Shown: in pieces, positions 1 to 59,804 of the stretch | How positions within the stretch are numbered: the first letter of the stretch is position 1 | Layout: each line of letters opens with the position of its first letter | NCBI GenBank assembly: GCA_963556145.1 | Contig: OY744470.1 | Span: forward strand, 4,650,001 to 4,714,000 | Reading direction: 5' to 3' | Source of the DNA: Hygrocybe punicea | Lineage: Eukaryota; Basidiomycota; Agaricomycetes; Agaricales; Hygrophoraceae | Length of the DNA: 64,000 nucleotides | The notes under the pieces: model-generated | Told to the model about the DNA's origin: nothing | Database searches by the model: none | The model's input: the letters and a program-made list of their open reading frames with translations, nothing else | Position numbers and translations under genes: made by a program

Positions 1-483
1 CATTTCCTCCAATGTAAAGGTCCTATTGTACCCATCCGCGTTGACCATGGTGTAGCCGATTTTTGTAACTGATACTGCATCAACGTCAAGGTTGAGTTGG
101 GCAGTGACTTTGTTGGCCTCCTTGACGTGTTTTTTGGTGGTGGAAGGACGGACAGTGTAATCACCAAAGGAACGACTACTCCGTTCTTGCTGCCGTTTCA
201 TTTGTCGTTTTTGTTTACTTCTCAGCTTTCGATATTCGTTTACGGATTTCGCAGGTGGCTGACGAGAAATGGGGGTCGCAGTGGATGATGTGGGTGTCTG
301 ATGTTCATCGGAGTTGATATCAACATCGGAATCATGATCAGAAGGTGCAGGGGTGTCAGGTTGGTCAGTTTGACATATGGATTGGAAGGGGTAGTCCTCT
401 GTGTCGTCCTCCTGGTTGCTGATTTCAGATTGGACCGCATTGCCCAGTAATTGTTCAAAATTAAAAGAATTATTATTCGCCAT
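1..483 (-). CDS. Hypothetical protein, 5' part (runs off the window)
   Basis: An open frame of 161 codons starts at the ATG read from 483 to 481 and runs off the left edge without a stop. The protein begins MANNNSFNFEQLLGNAV, passes through an acidic Ser/Thr/Pro/Asp-rich stretch, then a basic stretch containing KLRSKQKRQMKRQQER, then a more ordered part with NKVTAQLNLDVDAVSV. The basic block could be a nuclear localisation or DNA-contact segment (inference). I recognise no family. No intron is needed over the visible part. A gene is supported by codon-like composition and the absence of stops over 483 bases in one frame. It is transcribed away from the repeat-rich block to its right. Confidence 0.55.
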   Translation of the reverse strand, partial: MANNNSFNFEQLLGNAVQSEISNQEDDTEDYPFQSICQTDQPDTPAPSDHDSDVDINSDEHQTPTSSTATPISRQPPAKSVNEYRKLRSKQKRQMKRQQERSSRSFGDYTVRPSTTKKHVKEANKVTAQLNLDVDAVSVTKIGYTMVNADGYNRTFTLEEM

Positions 484-1150: not shown

Positions 1151-1410
1151 ATAGATGGGTTGCAAGCTGGCATTACAGTTCTCAGCGTGACTCCCTGTCA
1201 TCGGCGCGTTGACATTGGCAAGGGCGTGGTGTGTGTGCCACAGCTGTGCAGGGTTAGGCCTGCACCCCAAGACACCTGTTGCATCAACATTGATGAGGTC
1301 CGATGACAACCCGGGCTGAAGTCTTTGATGGGTCCAGTGAGACTGCGTTCAAAATTAAGTTCACTTTCACTGGGTGCCCCATTTTCAGTTTGCGGACAAG
1401 TCTCAAGGAA

Positions 1411-1975
1411 GATCCGACAAAGTCCCGGTCTCGAGTCTTCGAAGGGTTCAGAGAGACTGCCCTATTGTTTTTTGGGTGCCCATCTGCAGTCTACCGACAG
1501 TTCTCAAGGGAGGTCCGACAAAGTCCCGGTCTCGAGTCTTCGAAGGGTCCAGAAAGACTGTCCGCAACAGCAGACATTCAAAGGGTGGAAGCGAACCGTG
1601 CACAGACTGCACGATTACGACTCCCGTGGCGCAGATCGCCCCCTCCGGTGAAAAACGTTGGGGACTGGAGGAGGGCCGTGCACAGACTGCATGTCCACGC
1701 CCTCCGTGGCCCAGACGGCCATTCCCCACTTCAATTTGACAGGGTGGAAGCGAATCGTGCACAGATTGCACGATTACGACTCCCGCGGCGCAGATCGCCC
1801 CCTCCAGTGGAAACGCTGGGGACTGGAGGAGGGCCGTGCACAGACTGCACATCCACGCCCTCCATGGCCCAGATGGCCAATCCCCCGGTCAGAAGGGTGG
1901 AAGCGGATTGCACACAGACTGCGCAATCACGACTTCCACGGCCCAGACGGCCACCCTTCTATGCTACAAAGCTAG
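1411..1975. repeat. Two interleaved tandem repeat families (about 103 bp and about 155 bp)
   Basis: A block beginning CCGACAAAGTCCCGGTCTCG occurs at about 1416 and again at about 1519, a period near 103 bp. It is followed by a second unit that starts AGGGTGGAAGCG at about 1583, 1740 and 1893 and contains GTGCACAGACTGCA and GCGCAGATCGCCCCCTCC. Copies differ at several positions. Open frames across this block on both strands are side effects of the repeat. Confidence 0.75.
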
Positions 1976-2315: not shown

Positions 2316-3798
2316 ATGCCTCGTACTAAACAAACCGCCAAGTTGTCAGTCGGTGGTATTGCACCCCGAAGAACTGCTCAAACCAAATTGGTGTCGACCC
2401 CTGCAACGCCGGCGGTGCGTCTGATCGTGTCCTCCGATGCCTCAACTCCGTTGCCTCCCCCACCGTCTGACGACAAAAATGATGTCCATACTCACTTTTG
2501 GCGTTTTTTATGTGGAAGCTGACCTCGTAATAGTTTTGTTACATTTGCCTGAATGGCGGATGCCTCCCGGTCTGTGATTACTGCCCACGTTCGGTTTGCG
2601 ACGGATGTCTTTCCATCCCCACCTATTTGGATACCGCGTCCACAGTCTTTATCTGCCCAACGTGTCATGAGTTGAATTTCAAAGGCCCTCATCATCACCC
2701 GTACTATGTAGGTGTGTCAATAATTCTCGACGACTTCAACTCTAATCATGATTCATTACTGACTTAGGCAATGTACACGTTGAATGGCCCAGCATACGTC
2801 GGTAATTCCCTCAACCCCACCACCCATGTACCTGCCACGACATCTCCGGCTCAAATTGCCCATTCCTTTCAAATGCACGCCCATTCCCAAGTCTCCAACG
2901 ATACCGTCCTGATCCTGCACTTTGTGCTGTCCGGGACGTCTCACGCTGGTACACCCGCTAACGTTCTTGCTGCGTACATGTCAAGCTTTCTGGGAGAGTC
3001 AACTCTCGAGTTCGCCGAGGTTGAGTTTGATCTTTCGGACGACTCCAACTTTGAGCCGCATGCGAAACAAGTTTCCAGCCTTTGTCGCAAGTACCTGTAT
3101 GTTTATAATTATCACATACTATACTGCTTCATCTGCTGAATTAAATACCAGACACCGTGCATCTCGACTTGTTGTTTTTATAACGACTCATTCCCATGAC
3201 AACACCGGTGATCTGTTCATTGGTCCAAATCTGTGTGCCTCCGTAACTGAAGTGATTTTTTTTTTTTGTGCTCCATTTTTCTAATTACTTGCATTAAACG
3301 TTAGTTTTTCAATCTCCTGATCCCCCGGAGGGTCGTAGGCTTTTTTCGTGAGCGGGATGTCACCGTTTGGGTGATGTCATGTGGTGCTTTGGTCAAAATG
3401 CCTGAGAGCTACCAGGACTTGGCTGGGGTGGTGAAACAGTACGTTTTTTCATCTTCGGTTTCAACTAAACTAAGTGCTTTATTTTAAGTTTTAAATTTAA
3501 CAATTTGGTTGCCTTCACGGCAACCAAATTTCAACCAATTCTCACCATCAACTTGATCATCAGCGTGGCGCAAAGGAACCTTGTGGAGCAGTTCTCATTT
3601 GAACGTGCGATTCAGGACACGGTGCCGACAGTTTTTTCAATTGGCCGCCATACGGATATCGTATATATTCAATATTCCGGCGACGTTCTCAAGGGTACTC
3701 GTTATACCTGGTGCCACCCCAAAATCTGCCCATGGGGACAACAACTCCCCACTCAATGCTCCAAATGTGGCCGAATTCGATCTTGGTCTTTTTCTTGA
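2316..3798 (+). CDS. Histone H3-tail mimic with PHD-like zinc finger and caspase/CHAT-like core, six exons
   Basis: Exons are 2316-2483, 2534-2707, 2768-3096, 3152-3251, 3305-3438 and 3489-3798; the introns are 50-60 bp and all phases agree, giving 404 residues. The N-terminus MPRTKQTAKLSVGGIAPRR copies the histone H3 tail (ARTKQTARKSTGGKAPRK). Residues 57-102 hold four CxxC pairs (C58/C61, C70/C73, C78/C81, C97/C100), as in a PHD-like finger. Then come a variable region, FITTHSHDNTGDLF (H237, H239) and VWVMSCGALV (C283). The order strand-His, then strand-Cys, is that of caspase/CHAT proteases. The C-terminus has CSKCG, then a TGA at 3796. I recall similar predicted proteins in mushroom genomes but no assigned function. 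Binding to H3-tail readers or writers and proteolysis are inferences. The ATG at 2316 is preferred because it gives exact register with H3 once Met is removed. Confidence 0.75.
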
Positions 3799-3939: not shown

Positions 3940-4500
3940 TTATATTTTTACCTTTCATGTGCATTTGTTTGTCTCAGCAACTTTGATAGTTGCTATGCCC
4001 AAATCCCAGATTCAAGCAAGTCAAGCAGAACTTCAGACAGGTGAGCCAGGTTCTGGGACTAAAAAAAAATTGTATGCATGTATGAAGAAATGAATCATTT
4101 CCACCCTATATACCTATTCTAGTAGTACGTTAATTCCATATTATACTTCACTGCATGACCCGAACAAGCAAGAGATATCGGATAGAACCAAAGATATTTC
4201 ATCACGTGATGTTCAAATTCTTTTTCTCTCCAAACCAAATTCTGATGCTGTCCAAACGCCTCATCTCAACATCACTGCTGCTGCTTCTTGCACTAACCAT
4301 TCTATTCCAAATGAATAATCTAGAGGTCCTATTTGACTTGTATTCAACACATCTGAATTACTAAACTACTAAATTATGTTAGTTCTCGACCGCCGAAGTT
4401 CATACAGATGGAAAATTCGGTAAAATCTTGGCTGGAACTAGCCAATTGCTTTGGAAGGGTTTCGGTAAGTAAAGCCAACTACTTCTACATCTATTCAATC
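3940..4500 (+). pseudogene. Possible 5' exons of a hypothetical gene cut off by Helitron H1
   Basis: Behind a splice-acceptor-like TCTCAG, an ATG at 3995 opens MPKSQIQASQAELQT and runs to a donor GTGAGC at 4041. A second coding-like block (about 4157-4317) reads DPNKQEISDRTKDISSRDVQ before a stop. A third (4383 to about 4468) reads FSTAEVHTDGKFGKILAGTS and ends at a donor GTAAGT. Phases between the blocks could not be fully reconciled. H1 begins just downstream, and exons of a gene in the same orientation reappear after H1 at 13976 and 20277. One host gene split by H1 is therefore plausible but unproved. Confidence 0.3.
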
Positions 4501-4519
4501 AATTGAGGCCTTTCATCCT

Positions 4520-6856
4520 ATGGAATGGTTAGGTATTACTTGTCAGGGTTGGAGCGGATTCAGCCTGTTCAAACCATTGGGTTTGTCCTTCTCTCAGCCC
4601 AGCCAGTTGGGTTTGTATTTTTCTCCGCCCAGACAGTTGGGTTTGTGTTTATCTCCACCCAGACAGTTGGGTTTGTATTTTTCTCCGCCCAGACAGCTGG
4701 GTTTGTATTTTTCTCCACCCAGACAGTTGGGTTTGTATTTTTCTCTGCCCAGGCAGTTGGGTTTGTTATTATCTCAGCATGAAATATTCTGTGCATTGTT
4801 CTCTTTACCCAGACCATCTAGTGTATTGTCTTCTCTGCCTCAACAGTTGAATCAATCTCCATACGTCTTGTTATGGATCTGCACAGGTATCCTAACCTGG
4901 CATTTTCCTACATTGATAATATTCCATCTCAGGAAGATGGTAATGTCATACAAGTTCCATGCTACAGCAGTATTACCACAAAATATTGATATAATCAAGG
5001 CTATGTATAGCACATGTGTAGGAGGTGGCAAGAAACCTATCTTTACTTTATCTGAACTTATCTCAAAAGATTCCCAATACAAACCAGGAAACTACACATT
5101 TAAATCATATGTATCTGAAAGGAATTTAATTCATCTGGATTTTTCAAACCCGTTTCTTGTGGCATTAGATGTCCCACTTCAAACCTTAGTAAGTAAATTA
5201 ACCATTGCAGATCTAAAAATTATTGCCAGTTATCATTCTATTTATTTACCTGCAAAGATGAAGTATACCAATATTCAAACAAAAATTGTCAATCACAAAT
5301 GCATTGATTGTTCCTCTTATCTTTCTATCTTTGAATTTATTGACGATATAGAAATAGCAAATAAAAAGAGAATGGCTAACATTGAGGCTGTAAAGCTGTC
5401 ACACAATAAAAATATAGACAAATACTGTAAAGAACATCTCCATGCAGTTAAAAAATACAATCAAAATAATATTGATAAACATCAGCAGACAAATCAAGCT
5501 GCTGTAAAAAGATATAATTTCCAACATCCACAGATTCGTCAGCAGCAAAATTTGACTGCTGTTAAAATTTATCATTCAAGACATACAGAGCAGCATAAGC
5601 AGCAAAATTTAGCTGCAGTTAAAAATTATCACTTGAAACATCTAGAAAGACATCAACACCAAAATTTAGCCACTGTTGAAAGAGATTTTTCTGATGATTC
5701 AGAGAACCATAAAATGTTTAATCAAAAAGCAGTTCAATCTTTTCATATCAGTAATCCAGACCAATGTAAACAGCAAAATCAAATTGCAGCACAGTCTTAT
5801 AGGGACAACATAAAATTTCCGCCTATACCTCCTTCTCAATCCTTGCAACATACCATTATTTCAAATTTTTGCATGGAAAGTAGTCCTAATAAATTTTCAG
5901 AAGCTGGTTGTGCAGTTTGTGGACGACTAACAGCAATTCAAGGTTTATCACAACTATCTTCACTTGATTTGGATTTAACTCTGTTACTACAAGCTTCTGC
6001 CACACAACAAGAACGTTTTTCATCTGATGATCCAGTTCAAAGCATGGATAAGCCCATTTTGATTGAAAACTTAGACAATATATGCAAAACATGTCACAAG
6101 TCATTAACCAAAGGAAAACAACCCCTGCATGCATTGGCAAATGGTCTGTGGATTGGTGATGTGCCAACAGCTTTACAAAACCTATCATATGCTGAACAGT
6201 TGATGATTGCAAGGGTTAGACACAATAGATGCATTGTCAGAGTCTCTTCAGGCATGCACAAGATGAGAGCCAATGTAATTACATTTGCAAATCCAGTTCC
6301 CAAACTATATGATATTTTGCCACCTCCAGCTGATGAATTAGATGAAGTTCTTGCCTTTATTTACACAGGTCCATGCAAACCAACCAAGTCTGACTTTGAA
6401 AGAACACCTCTGCTTGTTAGGAGAAACAAAGTAGCAATAGCGTTGAATTGGCTAAAGTTAAACCACTGTGATTACTTTGACTTGGAAATATCACAAGAGA
6501 ATTTGAATCAATATCCTGAAAATGATATACCAGTGGTTGTTGATTACCGCCAGTCATTCACCAACAAAAGTCAAGAATCAACTGCAGTACATGATATGGA
6601 AACTGAAGAAGGAACGGAGACTGGCAAATGTCCATTTGTTGTTCACGGCTTGACTGGTGAGGAATATTCAACTAAGAGTGTCAAAGCATTAAAGGCTATT
6701 GCTTTGAAACATTTAAAGAGCAACCGCATGGTGCTTGCTATCGGACATGACAAAGATCCACAATCAATCTATGGCAACCCACAGTTATTTCCACAAATGA
6801 TGCCTTGGCTGTTTCCATATGGACTTGGTGGTATTGGAAATTACAAGTTCTTTTAA
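4520..6856 (+). CDS. H1 Helitron replicase, N-terminal part
   Basis: About 770 residues up to the insertion of copy A at 6842. The start is uncertain. It opens with about six copies of a ten-residue QLGLYFSPPR repeat (4590-4770). The middle has seven 19-residue repeats with a QNLAAVKxYH core (about 5406-5805). A Cys-rich part follows (GCAVCG, CKTCHKS). The DUF6570-like block contains ALANGLWIGDVP, YAEQLMIARVRHNRCIVRVS and MHKMRANVITF, and the part ends in PWLFPYGLGGIGN. H2 at 27924-30118 carries the same order without the repeats. In Helitron replicases this region precedes the Helitron_like_N/Rep domain. The last codons of the frame belong to the inserted repeat, not to the protein. Confidence 0.8.
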   Translation: MEWLGITCQGWSGFSLFKPLGLSFSQPSQLGLYFSPPRQLGLCLSPPRQLGLYFSPPRQLGLYFSPPRQLGLYFSLPRQLGLLLSQHEIFCALFSLPRPSSVLSSLPQQLNQSPYVLLWICTGILTWHFPTLIIFHLRKMVMSYKFHATAVLPQNIDIIKAMYSTCVGGGKKPIFTLSELISKDSQYKPGNYTFKSYVSERNLIHLDFSNPFLVALDVPLQTLVSKLTIADLKIIASYHSIYLPAKMKYTNIQTKIVNHKCIDCSSYLSIFEFIDDIEIANKKRMANIEAVKLSHNKNIDKYCKEHLHAVKKYNQNNIDKHQQTNQAAVKRYNFQHPQIRQQQNLTAVKIYHSRHTEQHKQQNLAAVKNYHLKHLERHQHQNLATVERDFSDDSENHKMFNQKAVQSFHISNPDQCKQQNQIAAQSYRDNIKFPPIPPSQSLQHTIISNFCMESSPNKFSEAGCAVCGRLTAIQGLSQLSSLDLDLTLLLQASATQQERFSSDDPVQSMDKPILIENLDNICKTCHKSLTKGKQPLHALANGLWIGDVPTALQNLSYAEQLMIARVRHNRCIVRVSSGMHKMRANVITFANPVPKLYDILPPPADELDEVLAFIYTGPCKPTKSDFERTPLLVRRNKVAIALNWLKLNHCDYFDLEISQENLNQYPENDIPVVVDYRQSFTNKSQESTAVHDMETEEGTETGKCPFVVHGLTGEEYSTKSVKALKAIALKHLKSNRMVLAIGHDKDPQSIYGNPQLFPQMMPWLFPYGLGGIGNYKFF
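4590..4770 (+). repeat. 30 bp in-frame minisatellite in the H1 replicase
   Basis: About six units of roughly CCCAGACAGTTGGGTTTGTA plus ten bases, encoding QLGLYFSPPR. The unit length is a multiple of three, so the frame is kept. It also opens shadow frames on the minus strand. Confidence 0.85.
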
Positions 6857-8177
6857 TTTATTAAAAGACTCGTTCTTTATCAGACCTGGTTCAGTGAAGG
6901 TTCGTAATTAATTAATTAATTCATTAATGTTTTTGCATCGCCTATAGAGAATTTTTTTTTGGGCAAGAGATATGATTCTACTTCTTATGTTGGAATGTAA
7001 CATAAAATCTGGGCCATGTTTGGGGTGGCTTACATAAGCATCCAAATATGGGATGTCTTACACAAGACAAATTACCTCCCAATTATATTCAAAATATTCA
7101 TACACCCTTCAGTTCTCATCGGAATTAGCTGAAAATTGAACTGCTGACTAATATAAACATTTCGGGCAAGATGTGACAGTCACATGTGACCGGTCTAACC
7201 ATATAAGGTACTTTTTGATATTATATACCAAATTTTTTGCTGATCGCAATGGTAATAGTCACATGTGACCAGTCTAACCATATATGGTAATTTTGCATAA
7301 TATATGCTAAATCACATACTGCTCATCATATTCATTACACAAATACAATTATATTCAAAATATTTATCCTGGCCTTAATTCTTATCAGATTCAGCTGAAA
7401 ATTGAACTGCTGCCTAATATTATCATTTCGGGTCACATGTGACAGTCACATGTGACCACTCTAACCATATAAGGCAATTTCTGATATTGTATAGCAAATT
7501 TTTTGCTGATCGCAATGGTGATAGTCACATGTGACCAGTCTAACCATATAAGGCAATTTTACACCATATATCCTAAATTTCAAGGTGATCACAGGAGTCA
7601 TAGTCACATGTGACCACTGTTACTATATATAGAAATATCAGCCATATAAGCAGAAATTAGTGTAACTCAGATGATATAATGATATTTTTACTTAAAACAT
7701 ATAATTCAATGTGATATCGCTGTATATATTATATACTAATTATATATTTCAAGCAAAATCACTTATTGATGTTTGTAATAATCATACAAATAAAAATTCA
7801 ATAATAGAAACAAGACTTTGTTCATGCCATATGCAACATTGGTCCACTCAAGTACAGCTGTCTTCATGTTATCATCTGTTGTGCAGCAAAGTTATAGAGA
7901 AGTAGAGTTTAGCAAATGTAAGTCAATTGTTATCATACTGTTTAAAGACAGTTGTATTTGACAGTTGATGTATTGTGTTGCTCTCTTTTTTGGCTGAGAG
8001 TATTGCATAATGATGAAGCAAAGAAGACATGACAGTGGGAGAGGAAGTTGAGACATGCTATGCAGGTTTTTTCTTCTATTTTTATGTTGCTATGGTGAGA
8101 GGTTGCTATGATGAAAGTGAGGAGGGGGAAAAAAGAACTCGTTCATGCCATGCGCAGCACTGGCCCACTAAACAAGT
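6842..8177 (+). mobile_element. Non-autonomous Helitron-like element, copy A
   Basis: It starts TACAAGTTCTTTTAATTTAT (other copies start TACGAG), carries a short palindrome ending ACTCGTT, and ends CACTGGCCCACTAAACAAGT. The inverted partner of the 5' end, AAAAGAACTCGT, lies about 35 bp inside the 3' end, so the terminal inverted repeats are asymmetric. The interior is AT-rich, with five copies of GTCACATGTGAC, most followed by CTAACCATATA-like sequence. There is no protein-coding frame. Inserted between H1 codons, it separates GLGGIGN from the Rep domain; taking it out restores an open frame. At 1336 bp it is the longest of the set. Confidence 0.85.
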
Positions 8178-8222
8178 AATATAAAGCAAGGATCTTTATC
8201 TGATATTGCACATAAAAGACAT

Positions 8223-11200
8223 TTGTTAATGTATTATGACAAGCGCTTTCAGAGAGACCCACACTTTCCATTGATTGCATTTAATCATGAACAAATCAAA
8301 CAGGCAACTACAGGAGGGTACTTGTTGGCTGATAAAGCAAAATTTGATCAGATATCTCAGAGACTAATGGATCTTGATGTTGGTGTTCTTAATTACATAT
8401 CCAGAAAGATGGAAGAGGGTGAACATGTCAAACCTGACACCGATGAGGAAAAGCTTTGTTTCCAGGTGATCAAGGACATTGACCATGTTGGAAGTCATGT
8501 ACAAGGATCATTGACAAATAAGAAATATATGAGAAATGAAATCTGGGCACTGATGTCATTCTTTGGGGCCCCATCTTGGTTTATCACCTTTTCACCTGCA
8601 GATATCATGCATCCACTATGTTTATATTTTGCTGACACCAAAGAGAAGTTTTCCCCAAACTTGCAAGACTATGATGAGAGATACAGACTTATTGCCCAAA
8701 ATCCTGTGGCTGGTGCAAGATTCTTTCATTTTATGGTCAAGTTGTTTATCAAACATGTACTTGGAGTTGGCTCAAATCACTCTGGATTTTATGGAGATAC
8801 AAATGCATATTATGGTGCTGTTGAACAGCAAGGACGATTAACTCTTCATATGCATATGATGTTATGGCTCAAAGCATGCTTGTCGCCACAAGAGATCAGA
8901 GATAGAATCATGGATCCCAACTCAGACTTCCAAAAAAGATTTGTTGAATGTCTTGAAAGTGTTCATATTGGTGAATTTATGACTGGCACAATGGATGAAG
9001 TAACAGCCAAAGTCAATGCTCAATCCATGCAAAAAGGTTATAAAGATCCAACTCAAACCTTGCCTGAAACACCACCACCTCTGTGCAATGACAAACATAA
9101 AGACATGGATGATCAATCTGAATGCATTGAATGCAAGAATGTTGAGTCATGGTGGAATCGATTCAGAAACACTGTGGATGATTTGATACTTCACTCCAAT
9201 GTTCATAATTGTGGCAGATACAAGTCTAATGCTGAGAAAGTAAATAGAAAAGACAGACCCACCTGCATGAACAAACATGGAAAATGCAAAGCTAGATTTC
9301 CAAGACCATTGTTTGATTCCACTCAAGTTGATCCAAAGACTGGTGCACTGAATGTGAAAAAGGGTGAAGCATGGATTAACACATTAACCCCACTTGTAAC
9401 ATATCTATTACGCTGCAACACTGATATCACAAGTCTTCTATCTGGCACAGCAATCAAGGCGATTGTAGCATACATATCTGACTATATAACTAAACCAGGA
9501 CTAAAAACTTATAGCATATTTGATACTATCAGAAGTGTATTTGACAGAAATTCTGAGATGCTTGGTGGATCAATGCAGAGAAAAGAAAAAGCTAGAAAAT
9601 TAATCACACAAATTATCAATACATTAACAGTCAAACTGGAAATAGGTGGACCCATGTCAGCTCTATATTTGCTGGGCAATCCTGATCATTACACTAGCCA
9701 CAAGTTTATTCCTGTGTATTGGAAAAATTATGTCAGAGAAGTGTTAAATGCTTGGAAAACAGATGGTGATACAGAAATGTCAAGTGAGCCAGACAAAGTA
9801 GTCCTCCGAAATCAGCAAGGCACTTTTGTTGGAACATCAATAGTGCATGATTACGTTTATAGACCTCAAAGGTTTCAGGATGTCAATCTATATGAATGGA
9901 TTCAATGTGCCAAAAAAGTTAAAATCCATAGAAAAACAGTTCATGATGAAATTCACAGTGAAGATGAATTACTTTTAGAGCCAACATTACAAGATTCAGG
10001 TAATAATTGTGGTGTCAGAGCATCACCTGCTAATCACTGTGAAACTGATGTTGATTCTGATGATCTCAACATTGATAAGGATAACACATTATTTGATCAT
10101 GACAATGATTACACAGATGAAACAGACAGTATGCATTCTGACAATGTAGAACACATATTGTTCCTGCAAGGTCATCCACTTTATGAAACACATTGCATTG
10201 ACTTCAACGAACAATATCATTTGGTTCCAAATTTCATTGGTGGTTCACTTCCCAGACGTGACAGAGGAGATAGAGAATATTATTGTACAACCATGTTAAC
10301 TTTGTTCAAACCATGGAGATCTGGTCATGACCTGAAATTAGGGGACCAATCTTGGGATGAAGCTTTTGACACTCATGAATTTACAAAAAGACAAATACAA
10401 ATAATAGACCATTTTAATTTGAGATATAAATGCAATGATGCCAGAGATGACTTTTCAGCACAACTCAAGAAGGGTGAAATGTTACCAGATGGCACATGCC
10501 CACAGTTTATGACTGGAGACATGATCTCACATCTCGATGATGACTACAGTCAAAATGGTGAAGACATAGATTATGCAGCAGATGGTCAAGATGGTCAAGA
10601 TGGAGAATATCATCTAAACAAATACACTGACCTTGGAAGTCATGGCAGATTGATCAAAGCACAAATGGAATCTACAGAAAATGTTGTTAGAAATGTGGGT
10701 TGGTTGGATGCCTGTCCAGAAGGCAATGTAGCAGTGAACATAAATCCACTTGATGTGGAAGTGCATAAGTCAGCATCTCAATGGAAATCTGCAGTTCAAG
10801 ACAAAAGACAACAAATTCTTGAAGAACATAACCAGAATATTCCTTCAAAGTCACATAAACATGGCAAACAATATTCAGACCCCAATGAAAATAATGTGAT
10901 GGTTGTTGACCAATCATACTTTATGCACAATTTCAAGGCAGAGAATGCACACAGACAGGTGTTGATTGACACTACTGTTCAAACATTTCACTTGAATACA
11001 GAACAAGATAGGGCATTTAGAATTATTGCAAACCATGCTTCATCATGTAGTGAACAACTAAAAATGCATATTGGAGGCATGGCTGGTACTGGAAAATCAC
11101 AAGTGATCAAAGCTGTTGTTGATTTTTTTAAAGCTGCAAATGAGTCTTACAAATTTGTTATCCTTGGTTCAACTGGAACATCAGCTGCATTACAGAATGG

Positions 11201-12638
11201 TTCCACATACCATTACTTCTTAGGCATTAATCCAAACTCGTCTGGCAAAAATGAAGCCACCAACATTGCTCAGCTCAAGGCCAGATTAGAAGGAGTTGAC
11301 TACATATTCATTGATGAGGTTTCAATGATATCTTGCCATGACTTGTATAAAATCAGTGCTAAACTTGCTAAAGCAACAAACATTCATGACCTGCCATTTG
11401 GTGGGATAAACATGATATTTGCTGGAGACTTTGCACAATTGCCACCTGTTGGAGGATCAGCATTATATAGTGGAACAGTTGGCACACAAGCACACTCTGG
11501 ATTAACACCATATGCTCAGGAAACCGCTGTTGGCAAAGTACTTTGGCATCAGGTAACCACAGTTGTTATTCTCAGAGAAAACATGAGACAAAAGACTCAA
11601 ACTCCCCAAGATGCAAAGTTCAGAACTGCATTGGTCAATATGCGATATGGAAAGTGTACTCCAAATGACATTATATTTTTGAGAAGCCGGATTGCAGGAA
11701 AAAGACCTGATCAACCTAATGTTGCCTCTAAGAATTTCAGAAATGTCCCAATCATCTGCGGCATTCACTCTCAAAAGGATCAGATCAATTTGCTTGGCTG
11801 TGAAAGATTTGCAAAAGACACAAACCAGAAATTAATCAACTTTTATTCCATTGATAGATGGGGAAAGGAAAAGGATGCATCTATAAGAAATAAATCAAAA
11901 GGTAAATCAAAAGTACTTCATGAATCTGGTGAGATAGACTTTGATACTCAAAGAGAAATATGGAAGGTGCACCATGGTGGAACAGAAAACTTTGCTGGTA
12001 AATTATCCTTGTGTGTTGGAATGCCAGTCATGCTTAGAAACAATGATGCAACTGAACTTTGCATTACCAAGGGACAAGAAGGATTTGTTGTCGGTTGGCA
12101 GTCATCAAAAGGAGATCATGGAAAGCGTATACTGGACACATTGTTTGTTGAGCTTCTGAATCCACCAAAGCTTGTGCAGATTCCTTCTCTGCCAGACAAT
12201 GTTGTTCCGATTGTGAAAAACACCAAGACAGTTCAGTGTGTATTTCCAAGTGATTTAAAAGAAAGGATAGAAAGACAACAGGTTTGGGTTTTGCCAAACT
12301 TTGCAATGACTGCACATGCCGCTCAAGGCAAGACAAGACCATACAATGTTGTGCATCTAAACAGCTGCTTTTCACACATGGCATATTATTCATCATTGTC
12401 TAGAAGCGCTACTGCAGCTGGCACTGTAATAATACAAGGATTTGACAATAGAATGATCACAAGAGGATGCTCTGGATATCTTAGACAAGAGTTTAGGGAA
12501 CAAGAACTGCTTGATGACATCACTAGAATGAGATATGAAGGCACATTGCCAGAACATATTGTACAAGATGTCCGGTCATCAATGATTCAAAAGTTTCAAC
12601 AATGGAAAGGCACTGGATATAAACTGATGCAGCTTTGA
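8223..12638 (+). CDS. H1 Helitron replicase: HUH Rep and PIF1-like helicase
   Basis: 1471 residues continuing the N-terminal part across copy A; upstream codons from 8178 are also in frame, so the listed ATG is not the native start. The Rep HUH motif is LTLHMHMML (H209, H211). The paired tyrosines are in AIVAYISDYITK (about residues 416 and 420). An acidic linker follows. The helicase has Walker A GGMAGTGKSQ (about residue 951), Walker B YIFIDEVSMIS, NMIFAGDFAQLPP and a late HAAQGKTRP motif. The Rep nicks DNA and forms the Tyr link; the helicase unwinds for rolling-circle transfer (established for the family). No internal stop is present. It ends KLMQL after a frameshift that detaches the USP-like domain. 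Confidence 0.92.
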   Translation: MLMYYDKRFQRDPHFPLIAFNHEQIKQATTGGYLLADKAKFDQISQRLMDLDVGVLNYISRKMEEGEHVKPDTDEEKLCFQVIKDIDHVGSHVQGSLTNKKYMRNEIWALMSFFGAPSWFITFSPADIMHPLCLYFADTKEKFSPNLQDYDERYRLIAQNPVAGARFFHFMVKLFIKHVLGVGSNHSGFYGDTNAYYGAVEQQGRLTLHMHMMLWLKACLSPQEIRDRIMDPNSDFQKRFVECLESVHIGEFMTGTMDEVTAKVNAQSMQKGYKDPTQTLPETPPPLCNDKHKDMDDQSECIECKNVESWWNRFRNTVDDLILHSNVHNCGRYKSNAEKVNRKDRPTCMNKHGKCKARFPRPLFDSTQVDPKTGALNVKKGEAWINTLTPLVTYLLRCNTDITSLLSGTAIKAIVAYISDYITKPGLKTYSIFDTIRSVFDRNSEMLGGSMQRKEKARKLITQIINTLTVKLEIGGPMSALYLLGNPDHYTSHKFIPVYWKNYVREVLNAWKTDGDTEMSSEPDKVVLRNQQGTFVGTSIVHDYVYRPQRFQDVNLYEWIQCAKKVKIHRKTVHDEIHSEDELLLEPTLQDSGNNCGVRASPANHCETDVDSDDLNIDKDNTLFDHDNDYTDETDSMHSDNVEHILFLQGHPLYETHCIDFNEQYHLVPNFIGGSLPRRDRGDREYYCTTMLTLFKPWRSGHDLKLGDQSWDEAFDTHEFTKRQIQIIDHFNLRYKCNDARDDFSAQLKKGEMLPDGTCPQFMTGDMISHLDDDYSQNGEDIDYAADGQDGQDGEYHLNKYTDLGSHGRLIKAQMESTENVVRNVGWLDACPEGNVAVNINPLDVEVHKSASQWKSAVQDKRQQILEEHNQNIPSKSHKHGKQYSDPNENNVMVVDQSYFMHNFKAENAHRQVLIDTTVQTFHLNTEQDRAFRIIANHASSCSEQLKMHIGGMAGTGKSQVIKAVVDFFKAANESYKFVILGSTGTSAALQNGSTYHYFLGINPNSSGKNEATNIAQLKARLEGVDYIFIDEVSMISCHDLYKISAKLAKATNIHDLPFGGINMIFAGDFAQLPPVGGSALYSGTVGTQAHSGLTPYAQETAVGKVLWHQVTTVVILRENMRQKTQTPQDAKFRTALVNMRYGKCTPNDIIFLRSRIAGKRPDQPNVASKNFRNVPIICGIHSQKDQINLLGCERFAKDTNQKLINFYSIDRWGKEKDASIRNKSKGKSKVLHESGEIDFDTQREIWKVHHGGTENFAGKLSLCVGMPVMLRNNDATELCITKGQEGFVVGWQSSKGDHGKRILDTLFVELLNPPKLVQIPSLPDNVVPIVKNTKTVQCVFPSDLKERIERQQVWVLPNFAMTAHAAQGKTRPYNVVHLNSCFSHMAYYSSLSRSATAAGTVIIQGFDNRMITRGCSGYLRQEFREQELLDDITRMRYEGTLPEHIVQDVRSSMIQKFQQWKGTGYKLMQL

Positions 12639-13642
12639 AGTGGTCAGAAAGTGATCCCCTGGTGATTGCTCCTGTGGAAGTCAGTCCATGGCACATCATT
12701 GAGAAGAACAAAAATAAGCAAGCAACAATGTCAATTTCTACTCCTTTTATCCCTGCCAAAGGATCTGTTCCAATTTTGTCCAGGAAGCATTTGATTGAAC
12801 CTTGTGAACTGCCAGCAGCTAAGAGACAACGAACAGATATGTCAGCTTCCCCAGCAGGTTTGCCATGGGATGAAAACAATTACAGTTGTGCATATGATTC
12901 TATCCTGGTTATATTGTTTGATCTCTGGAAGGAAAACCATATAGCATGGTCTGAAGTATTTCATGATATGAATGATTATCTGGCTACTTTATCTGATGGC
13001 TTCTCAGATATATTGAAAGGCAATATGACATTTGTGCAACTCAGAAATGAATTAAGGGCTATTTTGCATGATAAGCATCCTGAGACATATCTAATGGGAC
13101 CTGTTGGAATTAGTGTTACAACTCTAGCCATGGAGTTTTTACACGTAGACACTGCAGTCACATCTTCTCAGCATCAATGTACAAGGTGTAAATTTGCTGA
13201 AAAACCAGTGGATAATCAACTTGGTTATGTTTTACATGGAGAAACTTCAGTTCAAGGGTCTACTATGAATTGGATTGAAACATTGTCCCAACAAACACAT
13301 CGAAGGTGTTCTAAGTGTCAATCGGCTATGCAACAAATCTTATTCTACAATGAAGTGCCACCTGTGCTTGTTTTGGAATATCCACTCATGGACATTGAGA
13401 CCAGTCATACACTTGAGTTTGAAACTGACAAAGGCATCAAGTTATTGAGGTTGAAAGGAATTGTTTATCATGGCCAATATCATTTCACCAGTAGAATCAT
13501 AAGTGTAGACAGGAAGGTTTGGTTTCATGATGGTATGACTACTGGAAATACTTGTTCATATGACGGTAGGCTTGATAAATTATCAGATGCTGATGTTAGA
13601 CAATGCAGAGACAAGAATCTTGTGCTGGCAATATATGCTTAA
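12635..13642 (+). CDS. H1 USP-like cysteine protease domain, formerly fused to the helicase
   Basis: About 335 residues. Alignment with H2 shows that codons from about 12624 (DAALKWSESD) belong to the helicase frame, so one lost base (or two gained) near 12622 created this separate frame. The Cys box is NNYSCAYDS (C85). Two CxxC pairs follow (QCTRC, RCSKC), as in the zinc ribbon of ubiquitin-specific proteases. The His box is GQYHFTSRI (H283), with a VWFHDG Asp shortly after, the usual USP order. Removal of ubiquitin or a ubiquitin-like modifier is inferred from this layout only. An OTU-type protease is known in some Helentrons, but the CxxC pairs fit USP better. It ends LVLAIYA. Confidence 0.7.
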   Translation: MKWSESDPLVIAPVEVSPWHIIEKNKNKQATMSISTPFIPAKGSVPILSRKHLIEPCELPAAKRQRTDMSASPAGLPWDENNYSCAYDSILVILFDLWKENHIAWSEVFHDMNDYLATLSDGFSDILKGNMTFVQLRNELRAILHDKHPETYLMGPVGISVTTLAMEFLHVDTAVTSSQHQCTRCKFAEKPVDNQLGYVLHGETSVQGSTMNWIETLSQQTHRRCSKCQSAMQQILFYNEVPPVLVLEYPLMDIETSHTLEFETDKGIKLLRLKGIVYHGQYHFTSRIISVDRKVWFHDGMTTGNTCSYDGRLDKLSDADVRQCRDKNLVLAIYA

Positions 13643-13840
13643 AGTGTTTCATGGGTGGGTGGGTGGGTGGCCAAATTTAATTTGCATGAGATATATAAAA
13701 TAAAAAGTGGTTGGGCTCAGCAAGTCTACATCAACAACTTTTGCACTATAATAATGGGTGGGTGTGGCGGGCTTAGTCTTGCTCAATATGATTTATGAGG
13801 TAGCAGTGAATCAATTCAGAGCAAAGATTGGAACTTTAGG
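13643..13840. other. H1 3' untranslated stretch with a GGGT tract
   Basis: Noncoding sequence between the H1 stop and its 3' terminus. At 13653-13670 it holds four and a half GGGT units, a canonical G-quadruplex pattern. No other structure was recognised. Confidence 0.6.
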
Positions 13841-13885
13841 AAGAACTCGTTCATGCCATGCGAAGCACTGGCCCTCTAAACAAGT
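13841..13885 (+). other. 3' terminus of Helitron H1
   Basis: AAGAACTCGTTCATGCCATG followed by CGAAGCACTGGCCCTCTAAACAAGT. It matches the ends of copies A, C, D, E and H with two or three substitutions. Because it sits about 200 bp after the H1 stop, it ties the non-autonomous copies to an H1-type replicase. Confidence 0.85.
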
Positions 13886-13975
13886 AATATAGGCGGTCCA
13901 GGAAGACCACCAATAGAGCAAGGTTTGCAAGTTCAATTTATACTGTTCATGCAAACTAATATTCTTTATATTCAG

Positions 13976-18425: not shown

Positions 18426-19038
18426 TGTAGAGGCCCCGGGCCCTCTGGACCCGAATCCTCTTCATATCCCACTTCGTCCTCGTCCATTCCCATTCACGTA
18501 TCATCGATTCCGCCCGTTTCCGGTCTTTTCCGTCGATTCCGCTCCGGATTCCGCCTCCGGAATCGTTCATACTCAAGATGCGATGTCTCTAACGACCCGG
18601 AATCAGTACGTATATAGTTACATATGATATATCTTCGTTTCCCGTTACTTAGTACATAGCACCATTCCCCCTATACTCCGCTCCACCTCTCTACCATCAG
18701 TTACAGCCTTTGCTTGTAGTACATAGTTACTACAGCACAGGATCTCTCCCAGTAGTATAAAAGATGTACCCTTATACTACAACATATATATTATCATATC
18801 CCACCATATCATATTACATCCTATCATATTGCATCCCTTCAGTTCTATTTCTTAGTCCTCGCTTCGTATCATCTCATTAGTCTTCGTACTCCACTCCCTT
18901 CACTTCCCCTCTGACCCAGAACCCTGGATTCGGGTTGGATTGACTAGACTATAGACACTAAACTCCTCTGATCACTTCTTAGCTGATCACCACTTTCGTA
19001 GATTCCCATTCGGGTCTACAACCTCACTCGCCGTCACA
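18426..19038 (+). repeat. 3' long terminal repeat
   Basis: 613 bp, nearly identical to the 5' LTR. The sequence just upstream (CTGAGTCCTGACCGGA) is not a convincing polypurine tract. Confidence 0.9.
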
Positions 19039-20002
19039 ACGAGCTCTTTTTTTCCCCTCCTCACTTTCATCATAGCAACCTCTCACCATAGCAACATAAA
19101 AATAGAAGAAAAAACCTGCATAGCATGTCTCAACTTCCTCTCCCACTGTCATGTCTTCTTTACTTCATCATTATGCAATACTCTCAGCCAAAAAAGAGAG
19201 CAACACAATACATCAACTGTCAAATACAACTGTCTTTAAACAGTATGATAACAATTGACTTACATTTGCTAAACTCTACTTCTCTATAACTTTGCTGCAC
19301 AACAGATGATAACATGAAGACAGCTGTACTTGAGTGGACCAATGTTGCATATGGCATGAACAAAGTCTTGTTTCTATTATTGAAATTTTATTTGTATGAT
19401 TATTACAAACATTAATAAGTGATTTTGCTTGAAATATATAATTAGTATATAATATATACAGCGATATCATATTGAATTATATTTTTTAAGTAAAAATATC
19501 ATTATATCATCTGAGTTACACTAATTTCTGCTTATATGGCTGATATTTCTATATATAGTAACAGTGGTCACATGTGACTATGACTCCTGTGATCACCTTG
19601 AAATTTAGGATATATGGTGTAAAATTGCCTTATATGGTTAGACTGGTCACATGTGACTGTCACACCTTGCCCGAAATGTTTATATTAGTCAGCAGTTCAA
19701 TTTTCAGCTAATTCCGATGAGAACTGAAGGGTGTATGAATATTTTGAATATAATTGGGAGGTAATTTGTCTTGTGTAAGACATCCCATATTTGGATGCTT
19801 ATGTAAGCCACTCCAAACATGGCCCAGATTTTATGTTACATTCCAACATAAGAAGTAGAATCATATCTCTTGCCCAAAAAAAATTTCTATATAGGCGATG
19901 CAAAAACATTAATGAATTAATTAATTAATTAATTAATTACGAACCTTCACTGAACCAGGTCTGATAAAGAACGAGTCTTTTAATAAATTAAAAGAACTCG
20001 TA

Positions 20003-20276
20003 ATATTTGTGTATTCTTTAATCGCTTTACATAGTAAATTCTCTTCTCCATCGAAGAAGACAAAAGTCAAACCAGCATCAATTACATGATGAGGATGACG
20101 ACAGCGACGAAACATTCATGTGAGTTGGAAATTGAATAATTGGTCATATGTTAGACATGTCGTAGGCCTATCGCAAAACTCGAATTCGGTTCTAAGAAAT
20201 CAAATGCAGATAATGGTCTTCGGTATGATACTTCACATATATGATTCTTGTCCTTCATATATTAATAAATGATCAG
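20003..20276 (+). other. Stretch between copy C and the first supported exon
   Basis: It contains a possible exon ending GATGAGGATGACGACAGCGA at a GTGAGT donor (about 20112) that would encode DEDDDSDETF, like the acidic segment at 13976. No acceptor could be fixed. Confidence 0.3.
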
Positions 20277-26944: not shown

Positions 26945-27923
26945 TTTCGGAGGAGTAAGTCCTTCTTTTTGTGGAGTATTCATTATATTTGACTAAAAAG
27001 ACTTTATCCCAGTCGTTGATTTCTGGAAACGTGTGCCCTCAAATGTCCTCCTCATACATCGCTACAGTGTCTATATATGTACTTCTTTTTGCTCTGTTAA
27101 AAATGACTTGTGTTACTGTATGACCATAAGAATTGAGCATGATAGTAAGCATAGATACAACGTAAGGCATCAATCTTGTTGACTGAAAATCTGTTTGTCT
27201 AAAATATATCCTGGTGAATGCATTACTTTCAGTTCAGTTCATAGTACAACTACCGACTCACTCAACCTGAGAAGGACAACCTGAGATGACTTAGGTTCGG
27301 GCTAACGAAAATTAAAATTGAATATATGTAAGAAACCAGAATCGCGAACTTTATGGACCTATTAAATGAGGATACAATGATACAAGAGTAACAAAACCCC
27401 CTCTTGTAGTGGAAGATATAGCTGTCACTCCAAGGGGAGCTATGACTATTTGGTACCGGAATAATACAGTATACTTGTGTGGGAATGATACGTACAGCTC
27501 CATAAAAATGACAATGTATTTCTGACAAGGATGAAGAGCAATGATAATTTCCACGAATTACCAAGTAATTGTCAAATATGCACAGTTGTCAAACAGCCTG
27601 GTTGTTCAACTTCAATACCTGTTTTGTCTCAGTTGGTTGGATCAATGTCTTGTCAGCCAGACCCCTAATAAGATCGTAAGGCAGCTATTCATGATACAGA
27701 TGCATTTTTGGCCTGTATCAAGGCATGTCACAGGAACATAGAATGGAATAAAAAAAGTAAACACAGATTTCTAAAGATTCAGGCACGCCTTATGGTGTTT
27801 TGGGAAAAGCTTACAAATAATATAATGTCATATGATCAATCCCATTGTGTTAATTGTTATTCATGATCTGAACCACTTGACTAGTTAAATGGGCGGTGTT
27901 TCCTCTTACTGTCACAAATCCTC
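26945..27923. other. Stretch between the seven-exon gene and H2
   Basis: Mostly AT-rich. From about 27564 to 27867 one plus frame reads NCQICTVVKQPGC ... ACHRNIEWNKKSKHRFLKIQ ... DQSHCVNC with a double stop (TAATAA) near 27669. This Cys/His-containing block looks like decayed coding sequence, possibly an N-terminal part of H2 or another element. The left end of H2 was not found. Confidence 0.35.
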
Positions 27924-30269
27924 ATGAATCCCCACAACATCATCCGTGTCTGCATTGCATGTTTGACTTATCTATATTTCCTTGCAAATGCAACATTATT
28001 TCCACAACTATGCCAAGACAAACTTATGTATATCTCTCCTGAACCAATTTCCTGTCCTGTGATATCGACCTTGACCCAAGAATTGGGTGTTTTTCAAAGA
28101 AAACTCATAGAACATGAGTTGGCCCCAGATCAGGGCGATGCAACAATATTGATGCAAATAAATGCAACACTATATGTAAAGATCATTGGAATAACAAAAG
28201 AAACAAAAGATAACTTGACAGTCGATCCATTATTCGTTTGGACTACATTTAAAAATAGCGCCTTCAAAATGCGAATACGTTCTATTCAATATGCCAGAAC
28301 ATATTTCTTACCTCCTAAATATCTCTTTGCTTTGTATTGTCTTCTCAAACCTATCACTGTCCAATGTCGTTGTAAAATGATCAAAGCATTGCTCATGCGA
28401 TCACTATTGAGACGACATGATTTCAAAACATATTTATTTCATTGTATTACTAGTTCTCTATCACATGCAACGTTGCTGTGGACCACACTATGTTTCATAA
28501 TACGGCATAGCTGTTCAAACATAATTGTGTTCAATTTGAATTTATTCGGACACTTGTTTAAATCTTTATATATAAATTTCGTTCATAGATATGACTACAT
28601 TGGTGGTGGTAAACGAATACCAACATTCAAGTTTAGCTTTCTTCAATCTTTTATGCTACCGTCTAATAATATCAACCATGATTCTGACATATTATTCGAA
28701 TATGTGGGGCATATTGATGAACAAACAGCCAACACTTTATATGAAGATAGAAAAACATATGCATGTGTTAAAATGCCTTTACATGAACTTCTGCCAAATT
28801 TGACAGTGAAGGATATTGGTGAAATAACAACAATACATGGTATATATTTGTCAAAGACATTACGAAGATTACATGGACAAGATCTATCTGTGGCATTAAT
28901 GGGGCATAATTGTTCAGCTTGTGATGCTCATGTTTCTATTTTTCATGTGCATGATATTAAATCACATAAAGACCTGTGTAAACAGTGGTACAGAAGACAA
29001 AAAATGACAGAAACATATGAGTGCGGCAAAGAAGAAACTCAGGCTCAAATGAAAGAAGAATTGGACAAGTCAGATGAGCAATTATTTCCTCCTCCTCCTC
29101 CATCTATTGAATTGAAGGAAACCATAATCAGCAACTGGTGCAGAGATACATCACCTGAATGTTTCCAAGAAAGTGGGTGTGCTGTATGTGGTCAATTGGT
29201 TGCATTGAAAAACATGTCTTTATTGTCAAAGACGAAGGTTAATCTGAAAATATTAACTAGAGACAATATGGGAATCACAAGATGTGAACGATATCATTGT
29301 TCTGATCCAATAGAGGATATCAAAGGTCCAGTGCTAGATGACACATGTAAATGGATATGCAAACCATGTGTGCTCAGTCTGAATAAAGGCCAAACTCCCA
29401 AATATGCTTTGGCGAATGGACTTTGGATGGGAAGAATTCCTGCACAACTTCAAAATCTAACATTTGCTGAACAACTTTTGATTGCCCGTGTTCGTCACAA
29501 CAAATGTATTGTTCGTGTCTCCTCTGGGATGCATAAAATGAAAGCAAATGCCATCATGTTTCAAAACCCAACACCAAAGATATATCAACGGTTGCCTCCA
29601 ACAATTAAAGAACTTGATGAAGTGCTAGCGTTTATTTTCACTGGTCCTGCCAGACCAACTCCAGAAGACATGGAGCGAACGCCTTTATTGGTTCGCCGAA
29701 GGCGAGTTTCTGCAGCTTTAGAATGGCTGAAATTGAATCACATGGATTACTATGATTTAGATATCTCCTATGAAAATCTAGCACAATATCCAGATCATGA
29801 AATTCCTGTTGTGGTTGCATATCGACCAGCAGACACAAATAAGGAACCAGAAGCCACTAGTGCATTTGACAATGAAGTGGAAGATGGTGTGGAAGATGGG
29901 CCTTGTCCCTTTGTTGTTAGTGGAGTAACTGGCGAAAATCTAGATATTACAAGTCCAAAGGCATTAATAGCTAGAGCGACCAAGCACTTGATAGATGACC
30001 ATGGTGGTGTTCTTGCCATAAGCCATGCTAGAAATCCAGAATCGTTCTTTAATAATCCTCAGTTATATCCTATGATGTTTCCCTGCCTATTTCCATATGG
30101 CTTGGGTGGTATTAGCAGCATAGACAATGATGTTTTAAGCATCAGTGATATGATGCACAAAAGACATCTCCTGATGTACCATGACAAAAGATTTCAAACC
30201 GATCCCTATTTTCCATTGCATTCAATCAAGAACAAATCAAGGACAGTACAACCGGAGGATATTTGTTGA
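27924..30269 (+). pseudogene. H2 replicase, N-terminal part
   Basis: An open frame of 781 codons from an ATG. Aligned with H1 from about residue 225 (YIGGGKRIPTFKFS, LPNLTVKDIGEITTIHGIYL, NCSACDAH, SGCAVCGQLVALKN, ALANGLWMGRIPAQLQNLTF, FPYGLGGI), then MHKRHLLMYHDKRF at the start of the Rep region. It lacks the 19-residue repeats of H1. The frame leaves the replicase at about 30217: compared with H1, four bases are missing after FPL, probably by slippage between two TTG copies. The final HSIKNKSRTVQPEDIC is out of frame. Confidence 0.75.
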
Positions 30270-30961
30270 CTAATAAACATAATTTCAACGATATTGCAGA
30301 TCGCCTGATGAATATCAATACAGCTGTTTTGGATGACCTCTCTAAGAGATTATCTAGAGGTGATAGAGTCAAACCAGATACATCAAAAGAGAAAGCATGC
30401 TATAAACTCATTTCTGATCTGGATCACGTAGCTGGTCAGGTCAAAGGTTCAATTACTAACAAGAAATACATGCGAAATGAGATTTGGTCTCTGATATCCT
30501 ATATTGGTGCTCCGACTTGGTTTATCACTTTTGCACCTGCAGACATCAATCACCCACTATGCTTATATTATGCTGACAACAAAGAAAAGTTTTATCCTAA
30601 ACTACGTCTACCCCAGGATTGTTACAAACTAATTGCAAACAATCCAGTTGCTGGAGCCCGCTTTTTTCACTTTACTACTGAAATGTTCATCAAACATATA
30701 TTAGGAATAAATGAATCTCATCCTGGCCTGTATGGAAACACATCAGGTTATTATGCAACGATAGAGGAACAAGGACGTCTTACCTTGCATCTTCATATGC
30801 TGTTGTAGATAAAGGGATGCTTTACACCTCAGGAAATACGTGACAAAATTATGGGTGAAAATTCTGACTTTCAGAAAAGATTAGTGGAATATTTGGAAAG
30901 TTTGTGTGTAGGACAATTCATGACAGGTTCTAAAGATGAGGTATCACAGAAAATGGAACAG
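30218..30961 (+). pseudogene. H2 replicase, Rep HUH region
   Basis: After the deletion the replicase continues in the frame of TTGGYLLTNKHNFNDIADRL, SITNKKYMRNEIWSLISYIG, APADINHPLCLYYAD and LTLHLHMLL (the HUH site). A TAG at 30806-30808 replaces the Trp that H1 has just after the HUH site. The frame stays open beyond it (FTPQEIRDKI, GQFMTGSKDEVSQKMEQ) up to copy D. Confidence 0.75.
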
Positions 30962-59294: not shown

Positions 59295-59804
59295 TTGTAG
59301 TTCAGTATGAGGTAGACTGGAGGATGAGTGAAATAGAAGTGGTAAGGGAAGTTAGGATGAACTCTGGAAGCTAAAACAGATTTTCCTTGCAAATTGGAGC
59401 AGTAGTAACTCAGAAATCGGAGCAAACTTGAGTTGCTGTGGCAAATTCCCACGTCAACAATCACATGTGCAAATTGCCACGTCAACAATCACATGTTCAA
59501 AATATCACGCGATGGTTCAATTGTATTTAAAAACTCCGAAACCTTCGTTTTCACCCCTTGAGTGCTTTTCTCCCACTCCCACTCCCCCGGCAGAGAGAGC
59601 CGAATCTCTCTGCTTGATGCCAGGGCACTGAAGTCCTGGTGAGGGTGCAGCCTGTGGTGTGATCTGCACTCCATTTCGTAGACCTGGATATGTTACCAGC
59701 AGAGAGGGTGGCCTCTCTGCTATTCCCTGGGCATGGGTCCAGGGTAGGTAACTTAAAAGGTTCCCATTTATTTATACATAGTAGTAGTAACGAGTTATGA
59801 TAAT
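59295..59804. other. Intergenic stretch with small inverted repeats
   Basis: Upstream flank of the minus-strand gene. The 59588-59735 part has GAGAGAGCCGAATCTCTCTG and GAGAGGGTGGCCTCTC, two short hairpins of similar style. Nothing else was recognised. Confidence 0.45.

Follow-up and report, generated by a model that had tools for sequence, protein, structure and literature searches.

Histone mimics occur in viral proteins, for example influenza NS1, and the SNAG domain of vertebrate repressors begins MPR. TET/JBP-bearing fungal DNA transposons were reportedly described by Iyer et al. in 2014. According to sections of a recent article, fungal DNA transposons including Helitrons carry TET/JBP genes in mushrooms and their relatives, and an escape from methylation was proposed for them (Kojima 2025, PMC12730594). 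Parts of PMC5663869 report that H3-like peptides of the histone mimics G9a and Snail1 bind H3 enzymes and readers, and that in BAZ2B a histone-mimicking linker of the same chain competes with H3 for the PHD finger. Here we analyze a window of 64,000 nucleotides of Hygrocybe punicea (C36:4650001-4714000, C36 being contig OY744470.1; the genome comprises 92 Mb on 42 contigs). It contains one copy of a repeated mobile unit in which a gene starting at position 2316, hereafter the tail gene, encodes a histone H3-like N-terminus fused to a predicted PHD finger, next to a divergently oriented gene for a predicted TET/JBP-fold dioxygenase and to a Helitron.

Like the TET/JBP transposons in the sections of PMC12730594 considered, this element carries a TET/JBP dioxygenase and has a Helitron among the carriers. 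Its dioxygenase has the HxD motif, whereas the PE type of those sections is marked by HxE; its main text contains 'PHD' 0 times and 'histone' 4 times, as background or reference in the places covered (12 of 14), and no protein resembling a histone or a PHD was seen there. The mimic of BAZ2B, as described in parts of PMC5663869, is Lys-rich and lies within a linker, in contrast to the N-terminal RTKQTA-like tail found here. SNAG and other histone mimics are short motifs of proteins encoded by hosts or viruses, whereas this tail resides on a transposon beside a TET gene. An H3 tail and a reader finger on one chain are also found in the DNMT3A ADD-H3 fusion (3a1b), but this is a man-made construct for crystallography. 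No such mimic is known to us that a transposon carries or that is paired with a TET gene. Judging by titles and the starts of abstracts of the papers listed, no transposon-encoded H3 mimic was found in the open-access literature, most subscription papers lying outside it; there are precedents for histone mimics and for transposons with TET genes, and the searches showed no element that combines the two with a reader finger.

We give about even odds (roughly 0.5) to the reading that this mobile element encodes a two-protein anti-silencing module, consisting of the TET/JBP-fold dioxygenase and a PHD adaptor with an H3-like tail. The ATG at 2316, with an A at -3, is the first to follow an in-frame stop, which lies four codons before it; the window reads MPRTKQTAKLSVGGIAPRRTAQTKL at 2316-2390 on the + strand. 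The encoded MPRTKQTAKLSVGGIAPRR aligns with H3 ARTKQTARKSTGGKAPRK without gaps and with 12/18 positions identical, the differences including Pro for A1 and Val for T11, which the sequence-only reading does not mention, besides those at K9 and K14, so that the gap-free alignment and the kept and changed residues named by the sequence-only reading are borne out. With the residue composition of the linker of one subfamily B member, the chance of 12/18 at a single N-terminus is ~2.7e-10, or ~4e-6 across an assumed 15,000 genes. Tails of the family are similar and not identical, with 11-15/18 positions as in H3; that of subfamily C, identical at 15/18, matched histone H3 chains in a PDB sequence search (E ~1e-4). 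In the rows listed, the alignment to H3 chains covers only about residues 1-35, after which the PHD and a different core follow, and a histone fold downstream of the tail is absent. As its sequence indicates, the tail protein is not a histone.

When exon 1 was compared with the genome in six frames, 32 matches were obtained at E <= 1, of which 29 at E <= 3e-8. The tail was present in 29 of the 30 loci obtained from this search, and two more copies reached via a core match also have it, followed by a frameshift, giving 31 tails in total; among L001-L030, L061 and L062 it is lost solely in L026. L030, at first sight tail-less, was rejected as such: its tail is present and severed from the remaining gene by an insertion. 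Similarly, the two copies reached via the core, D copies on C39 and C41, looked tail-less for want of a good exon 1 match but carry the tail and the frameshift, one also with a stop at R2, and the core copy C39:4261294 outside the clusters described below, a candidate for a domesticated tail-less relative, proved to be a 5′-truncated type A-like pseudogene. The DNA pattern M-x-R-T-K-Q-T-A occurs at 20 places in the whole genome, namely 4 host H3 genes and 16 family members, and the reversed control pattern at 0 places in the same genome.

The tails fall into four subfamilies: A (10 copies, sharing the tail type of the window copy), B (12 copies, MPRTKQTAKNSTGGVVPRK), C (4 copies, MPRTKQTAQKSTGGVAPRK) and D (5 copies, with tails such as MARMKATAKKVTGGITPRR). 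K4 and T6 were found in 31/31 tails, and the K14 position carried Ile or Val in 31/31. The K9 position is Leu in A (10), Asn in B (12) and Lys in C and D (9), the lysine being lost in A and B only (22/31). R2 is kept in 24/31 tails (replaced by three Cys, two His, one Gln and one stop), T3 in 27/31 (Met in 4) and Q5 in 26/31, with Ala here in each of the five copies of D. The substitutions at R2, and several elsewhere, resemble CpG decay. In L018 and L024, both of subfamily B, the start of the tail is frame-shifted. Outside this genome, relatives were P0002 (MPRTKQTSKKSTGGIAPRK), P0004 (MPRTKVTAKKITGGIAPRR), the B-type protein P0001 and the A-type protein P0003, on contigs of 1.2-5.4 kb; a search limited by word-sharing and gene prediction found no others. 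P0002 and P0004 both keep Lys at K9 and, since this position also varies among subfamilies, loss of K9 is not what selection keeps. Hence, retention of K4 with loss of K14, as first proposed, extends to all 31 tails, while an escape from H3K9 silencing through K9 Leu fits subfamily A (10/31) and fails for B with Asn (12) and for C and D with Lys (9). The same counts bear on the idea that the tail is methylated in imitation of an H3K4 substrate (at K9 as well in C and D), the mark regulating through the protein and not the nucleosome: K4 is constant, K14 always replaced and K9 kept in 9/31, but variation at K9 leaves only K4 as a possible general site, and we think this explanation unlikely.

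Selection was estimated as the ratio of nonsynonymous to synonymous substitution rates (dN/dS), with one member per subfamily and single pairwise estimates over short stretches. The tail (19 codons) gave dN/dS of 0.17-0.33 at dS of 0.6-1.6. Between A, B and C, RTKQTA had 0 amino-acid changes and 2-4 synonymous ones; against D, there were 3.5 changes of each kind. The linker (0.10-0.36), PHD (0.14-0.33), core (0.07-0.19) and ribbon (0.11-0.30) are likewise constrained, so that the tail is conserved within a functional protein and not uniquely. Codon conservation of the tail, proposed as a check by the sequence-only reading, is seen in its low dN/dS and in the RTKQTA unchanged in A, B and C, without being stronger than that of the linker or the PHD.

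These values also concern the origin of the tail, which could be a relic, captured from a host H3 mRNA or arrived at by drift and passively conserved in a young transposon family. As cDNA capture predicts, the intron that the four host H3 genes have after Gly13 is missing from the tail gene, and the A copies, 91-98% identical in DNA, are young. However, RTKQTA remained unchanged in A, B and C at a tail dS of 0.6-1.6, and the tail is kept in relatives on other contigs. Third-base identity to the four host H3 genes amounts to only 4-9 of 12-13 shared codons (codon-usage expectation not included), which argues that no recent capture is visible. A relic is thus most improbable. One host H3 gene, L053 (C35:4036764), is itself divergent, with GIKTSSKQVEKQIGYKG between KAPRKQL and VKKPH, unlike the other host H3 genes.

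The profile of exon 2 matched CHD4 best among PDB entries (E 5e-7), followed by ZMYND8, PHF21A, CHD5, TRIM66, TRIM33, AIRE, TRIM24 and ATRX (best 60 of 185 matches), and its single-sequence PDB matches include the DNMT3A ADD-H3 fusion. By this similarity exon 2 is a PHD finger, in agreement with the earlier suggestion of a zinc finger of the H3-reading type fused to the tail. In the B copy, the ligands are spaced C-x2-C-x8-C-x2-C-x4-C-x2-C-x15-C-x2-C, each present in 24-26 of the 27 rows used, which exclude L031 because it cannot be aligned beyond the PHD. An Asp or Glu two residues before the first Cys was found in 25/27 rows, the misses being the insertion-interrupted L047 and L048. Such an acidic residue has a role in reading H3 unmethylated at K4 (H3K4me0) in AIRE (Asp297) and BHC80, and is a feature that exon 2 shares with the PHDs of PHF21A/BHC80, AIRE, CHD4 and TRIM24/33, which are among its best matches. 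Examined by eye, exon 2 also shows no cage Trp at the usual place, as in H3K4me0-reader PHDs. PHF21A/BHC80, AIRE, CHD4 and TRIM24/33 are not known to have an H3 tail of their own. Parts of PMC3471955 count BHC80, AIRE-PHD1, CHD4, TRIM24 and BRPF2 among the H3K4me0 readers, and an Asp297Ala row is present in one of its tables. We predict that the exon 2 finger is of the H3K4me0 type.

A divergently oriented dioxygenase gene lies within 6 kb of the tail gene in 24/30 copies. In a fold search with the relative P0009 (not the element's own protein), TET proteins were closest. The core motif HxD...H...R of 2-oxoglutarate/iron (2OG-Fe) enzymes is invariant in 30 aligned relatives (H177, D179, H230, R241), and the same motifs occur in the element's own exon. 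The catalytic exon matched nothing in Pfam at E 1, a longer dioxygenase sequence matched only 2OG-FeII_Oxy_3 below the cut-off (E 0.19), and no match was found among PDB sequences; a protein database search returned many named mushroom proteins as relatives. The neighbour gene is a predicted TET/JBP-fold dioxygenase, expected to oxidise 5-methylcytosine. Between the two genes, the second pair of direct repeats listed in Table 1 is matched in copies from each of the four subfamilies.

Three further observations concern this gene. In the window copy it carries an insertion of ~2.45 kb (C36:4647.3-4649.8 kb, L051) flanked by a short duplicated stretch. A second dioxygenase clade, ~50% identical, lies partly outside the clusters described below, e.g. 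at C41:2486141, C35:3862981 and C36:5555186, three places with no tail-gene neighbour among the core-search matches. Finally, a third conserved gene is convergent with the dioxygenase gene (L051 1683-2470, C36:4645183-4645970); compared with a subfamily C copy, it shows 86% amino-acid identity over 116 residues and 74% in DNA.

The 32 exon 1 matches are distributed over 12 large contigs, with a single cluster per contig that never exceeds 360 kb; two contigs have one match only. The summed cluster spans reach 1.83 Mb, whereas none of 20,000 random draws gave less than 14.3 Mb, and outside the clusters we found a truncated copy and several fragments of the core. This is the pattern of centromere-resident elements, and the clusters are perhaps centromeric. 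The transposon-rich setting invoked previously was confirmed in a stronger form, as the tail gene is itself part of the repeated mobile unit; the sequence-only reading mentions neither the family of copies nor the neighbouring TET/JBP gene. Among six A copies (two-state columns only), 122 of 165 transitional differences fell at CpG (61 C/T before G, 61 G/A after C), next to 44 transversions, a bias that marks decay through CpG methylation. The host genome has five DNA methylase family matches and two SWIRM matches over cut-off, one of the latter perhaps in an LSD1 homologue.

The SWIRM matches are relevant to a different role for the tail, acting in trans as a decoy or recruiter that binds host LSD1-type demethylases, Set1/COMPASS or PHD/ADD readers, with the PHD as a separate chromatin anchor. 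Its P-R-T-K start is SNAG-like and is H3-like thereafter; but SNAG leaves H3 likeness after Arg, whereas here it continues to residue 18, beyond the need of LSD1. SNAG mimics the H3 tail and recruits LSD1, as sections of PMC12612597 state. We regard this role as possible, though doubtful.

Returning to the two-protein module, the tail, the PHD likeness, the pairing of the genes, the dispersal, the selection and the CpG decay each have direct support. The dioxygenase arm would oxidise 5-methylcytosine on element DNA. The adaptor arm would combine the K4me0-type PHD with the H3-like N-terminal tail ~40 residues away: the PHD would bind unmethylated H3 tails at silenced copies and the own tail (P/A-R-T-K) would fill the same groove in cis or, alternatively, would act in trans by occupying host readers and K4 demethylases. 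Real H3 displacing the tail, or a modification of K4, would let the H3K4 state gate binding or release of the dioxygenase partner. Taking together the transposon-borne TET proposal, the cis competition in BAZ2B and SNAG mimicry, we infer that the tail is a tethered PHD ligand and possibly a decoy. Binding, gating, the partnership of both proteins, the centromeric position and anti-silencing would be deduced steps of this scheme. The fuller version, in which the self-carried H3 tail as ligand and decoy for H3K4me0 readers, together with a TET-type demethylase, keeps silenced and probably centromeric chromatin open, is put forward tentatively, on somewhat less than even terms.

Several points weigh against this two-protein reading. 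In subfamily D, Q5 is replaced by Ala in 5/5 copies and T3 by Met in 2/5. Pfam PHD scored 16.4 bits on the B copy against a gathering cut-off of 24, and ligand five is a Cys where PHD fingers, those of PHF21A, AIRE, CHD4 and the TRIM proteins included, have His. In dN/dS the tail equals or exceeds the linker and the PHD and mostly exceeds the core, special constraint being limited to RTKQTA. When 28 copies were projected onto the B copy L040, a procedure that conceals insertions, 18 rows were broken by a stop, gap or other loss; the other 10 (L032, L033, L034, L035, L010, L046, L040, L039, L043 and L044) had no in-frame stop or loss beyond subfamily length differences. The splice sites were deduced from conservation, and exon 1 has an unusual donor: GTCCAT in the window, GTCCGT, GTCTGT or GTGTGT elsewhere, and ATCTGT in two B copies.

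The six exons inferred for the tail gene, separated by short introns, are given in Table 1 with the other features; boundaries were set by frame conservation and splice signals compared among subfamilies. Unspliced, exon 1 may yield a free tail of ~56-87 residues in A, B and C. The window copy is late-truncated owing to its premature TGA at 3796-3798, and the zinc ribbon of exon 6 matched Zn_ribbon_IS1595 below the cut-off.

Table 1. Features of the window copy (window positions; C36 positions where indicated).
Feature	Position	Strand	Remarks
Dioxygenase catalytic exon	C36:4646394-4647020		left of window
Part of dioxygenase N-terminal exon	1..483	-	
Direct repeats between divergent genes	1310..1955	.	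1310-1462/1424-1563 and 1582-1802/1741-1955
Tail gene exon 1	2316..2483	+	H3-like tail (residues 1-20), Pro-rich linker; MPRTKQTAKLSVGGIAPRR...SDDKND
Exon 2	2534..2707	+	PHD-type zinc finger, FCYIC...CDYC...CDGC...CPTC (Cys8)
Exon 3	2768..3096	+	first part of core domain
Exon 4	3152..3251	+	core, THSHD..GDLFIG
Exon 5	3305..3438	+	core, MSCGAL
Exon 6 to premature TGA	3489..3798	+	core end and part of zinc ribbon
Helitron open reading frame (ORF) with DUF6570	4469..6856	+	
Helitron ORF, Helitron_like_N and PIF1-like helicase	8172..12638	+	
Last Helitron-unit ORF	12623..13642	+	no Pfam match at E 0.01
Right end of repeated unit	13840..13886	+	most listed copies stop ~13885-13890 (best 40 of 1286 candidates)

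The core (residues ~113-360) had no convincing match in Pfam, NCBIfam or PDB sequences; VPS3 (E 0.1), ribose isomerase (0.24) and NCBIfam NGO1151_fam (E 0.0034, one of four members) were set aside as chance. His237, His239 and Cys283 are present in 27/27 rows, His239 and Cys283 being 44 apart. Judged by eye, the strand order and the His-Cys pair may be caspase-like. A caspase-like peptidase with the tail as its pseudosubstrate could allow the element to clip real H3 tails; the core has no match to a clan CD (caspase-like) peptidase in Pfam or PDB, and we consider this quite improbable.

Helitron protein matches (E 1e-5) were found to the right of the tail gene in 14 of 20 other 9-kb loci (A 5/8, B 6/6, C 1/4, D 2/2). 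Subfamily C was considered as Helitron-less and this was rejected, L048 having a 104-residue match, 69% identical; the other three C loci have no Helitron match within 9 kb. Among the matches listed, the Helitron end seems commoner than the tail gene. Similarity extends at least 22.4 kb leftward of the right end (~13886), and the stretches of the left flank compared (within C36:4641501-4646400, as far as 8.5 kb outside the window) are 98-99% alike at six other places and 90-96% in C39. Left and right-end matches lie ~19-25 kb apart in the C6, C8 and C35 copies, so the unit spans ~20 kb or more; the window copy, inserts included, measures 22.4 kb.

Other Helitron sequences are present in the window. 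A 1.33-kb insert in the Helitron ORF (6842-8173), missing from several other copies, has an end that repeats the Helitron right-end sequence (GTTCATGCCATGCG...CTAAACAAGT) and relatives at 19038-20004, 31119-32083, 39513-40422 and 59802-61861; it is probably a non-autonomous Helitron relative. A second, broken Helitron at 27885-35901 has an open DUF6570 ORF and a helicase part ~65-70% like the first, with no tail-gene match beside it in the window. Further on, an ORF on the - strand (49859-51106) shows a weak Peptidase_C48 (Ulp1-type) match below the cut-off (E 0.0043).

If it works as proposed, one unit would join chromatin and DNA-methylation counter-defence. The four subfamilies make up a natural experiment on H3 tail residues, with K4 always kept, K9 optional and K14 never present, and the protein offers a testable model for intramolecular reader gating. 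The module is also a candidate explanation for the survival of the element in methylated, centromere-like regions.
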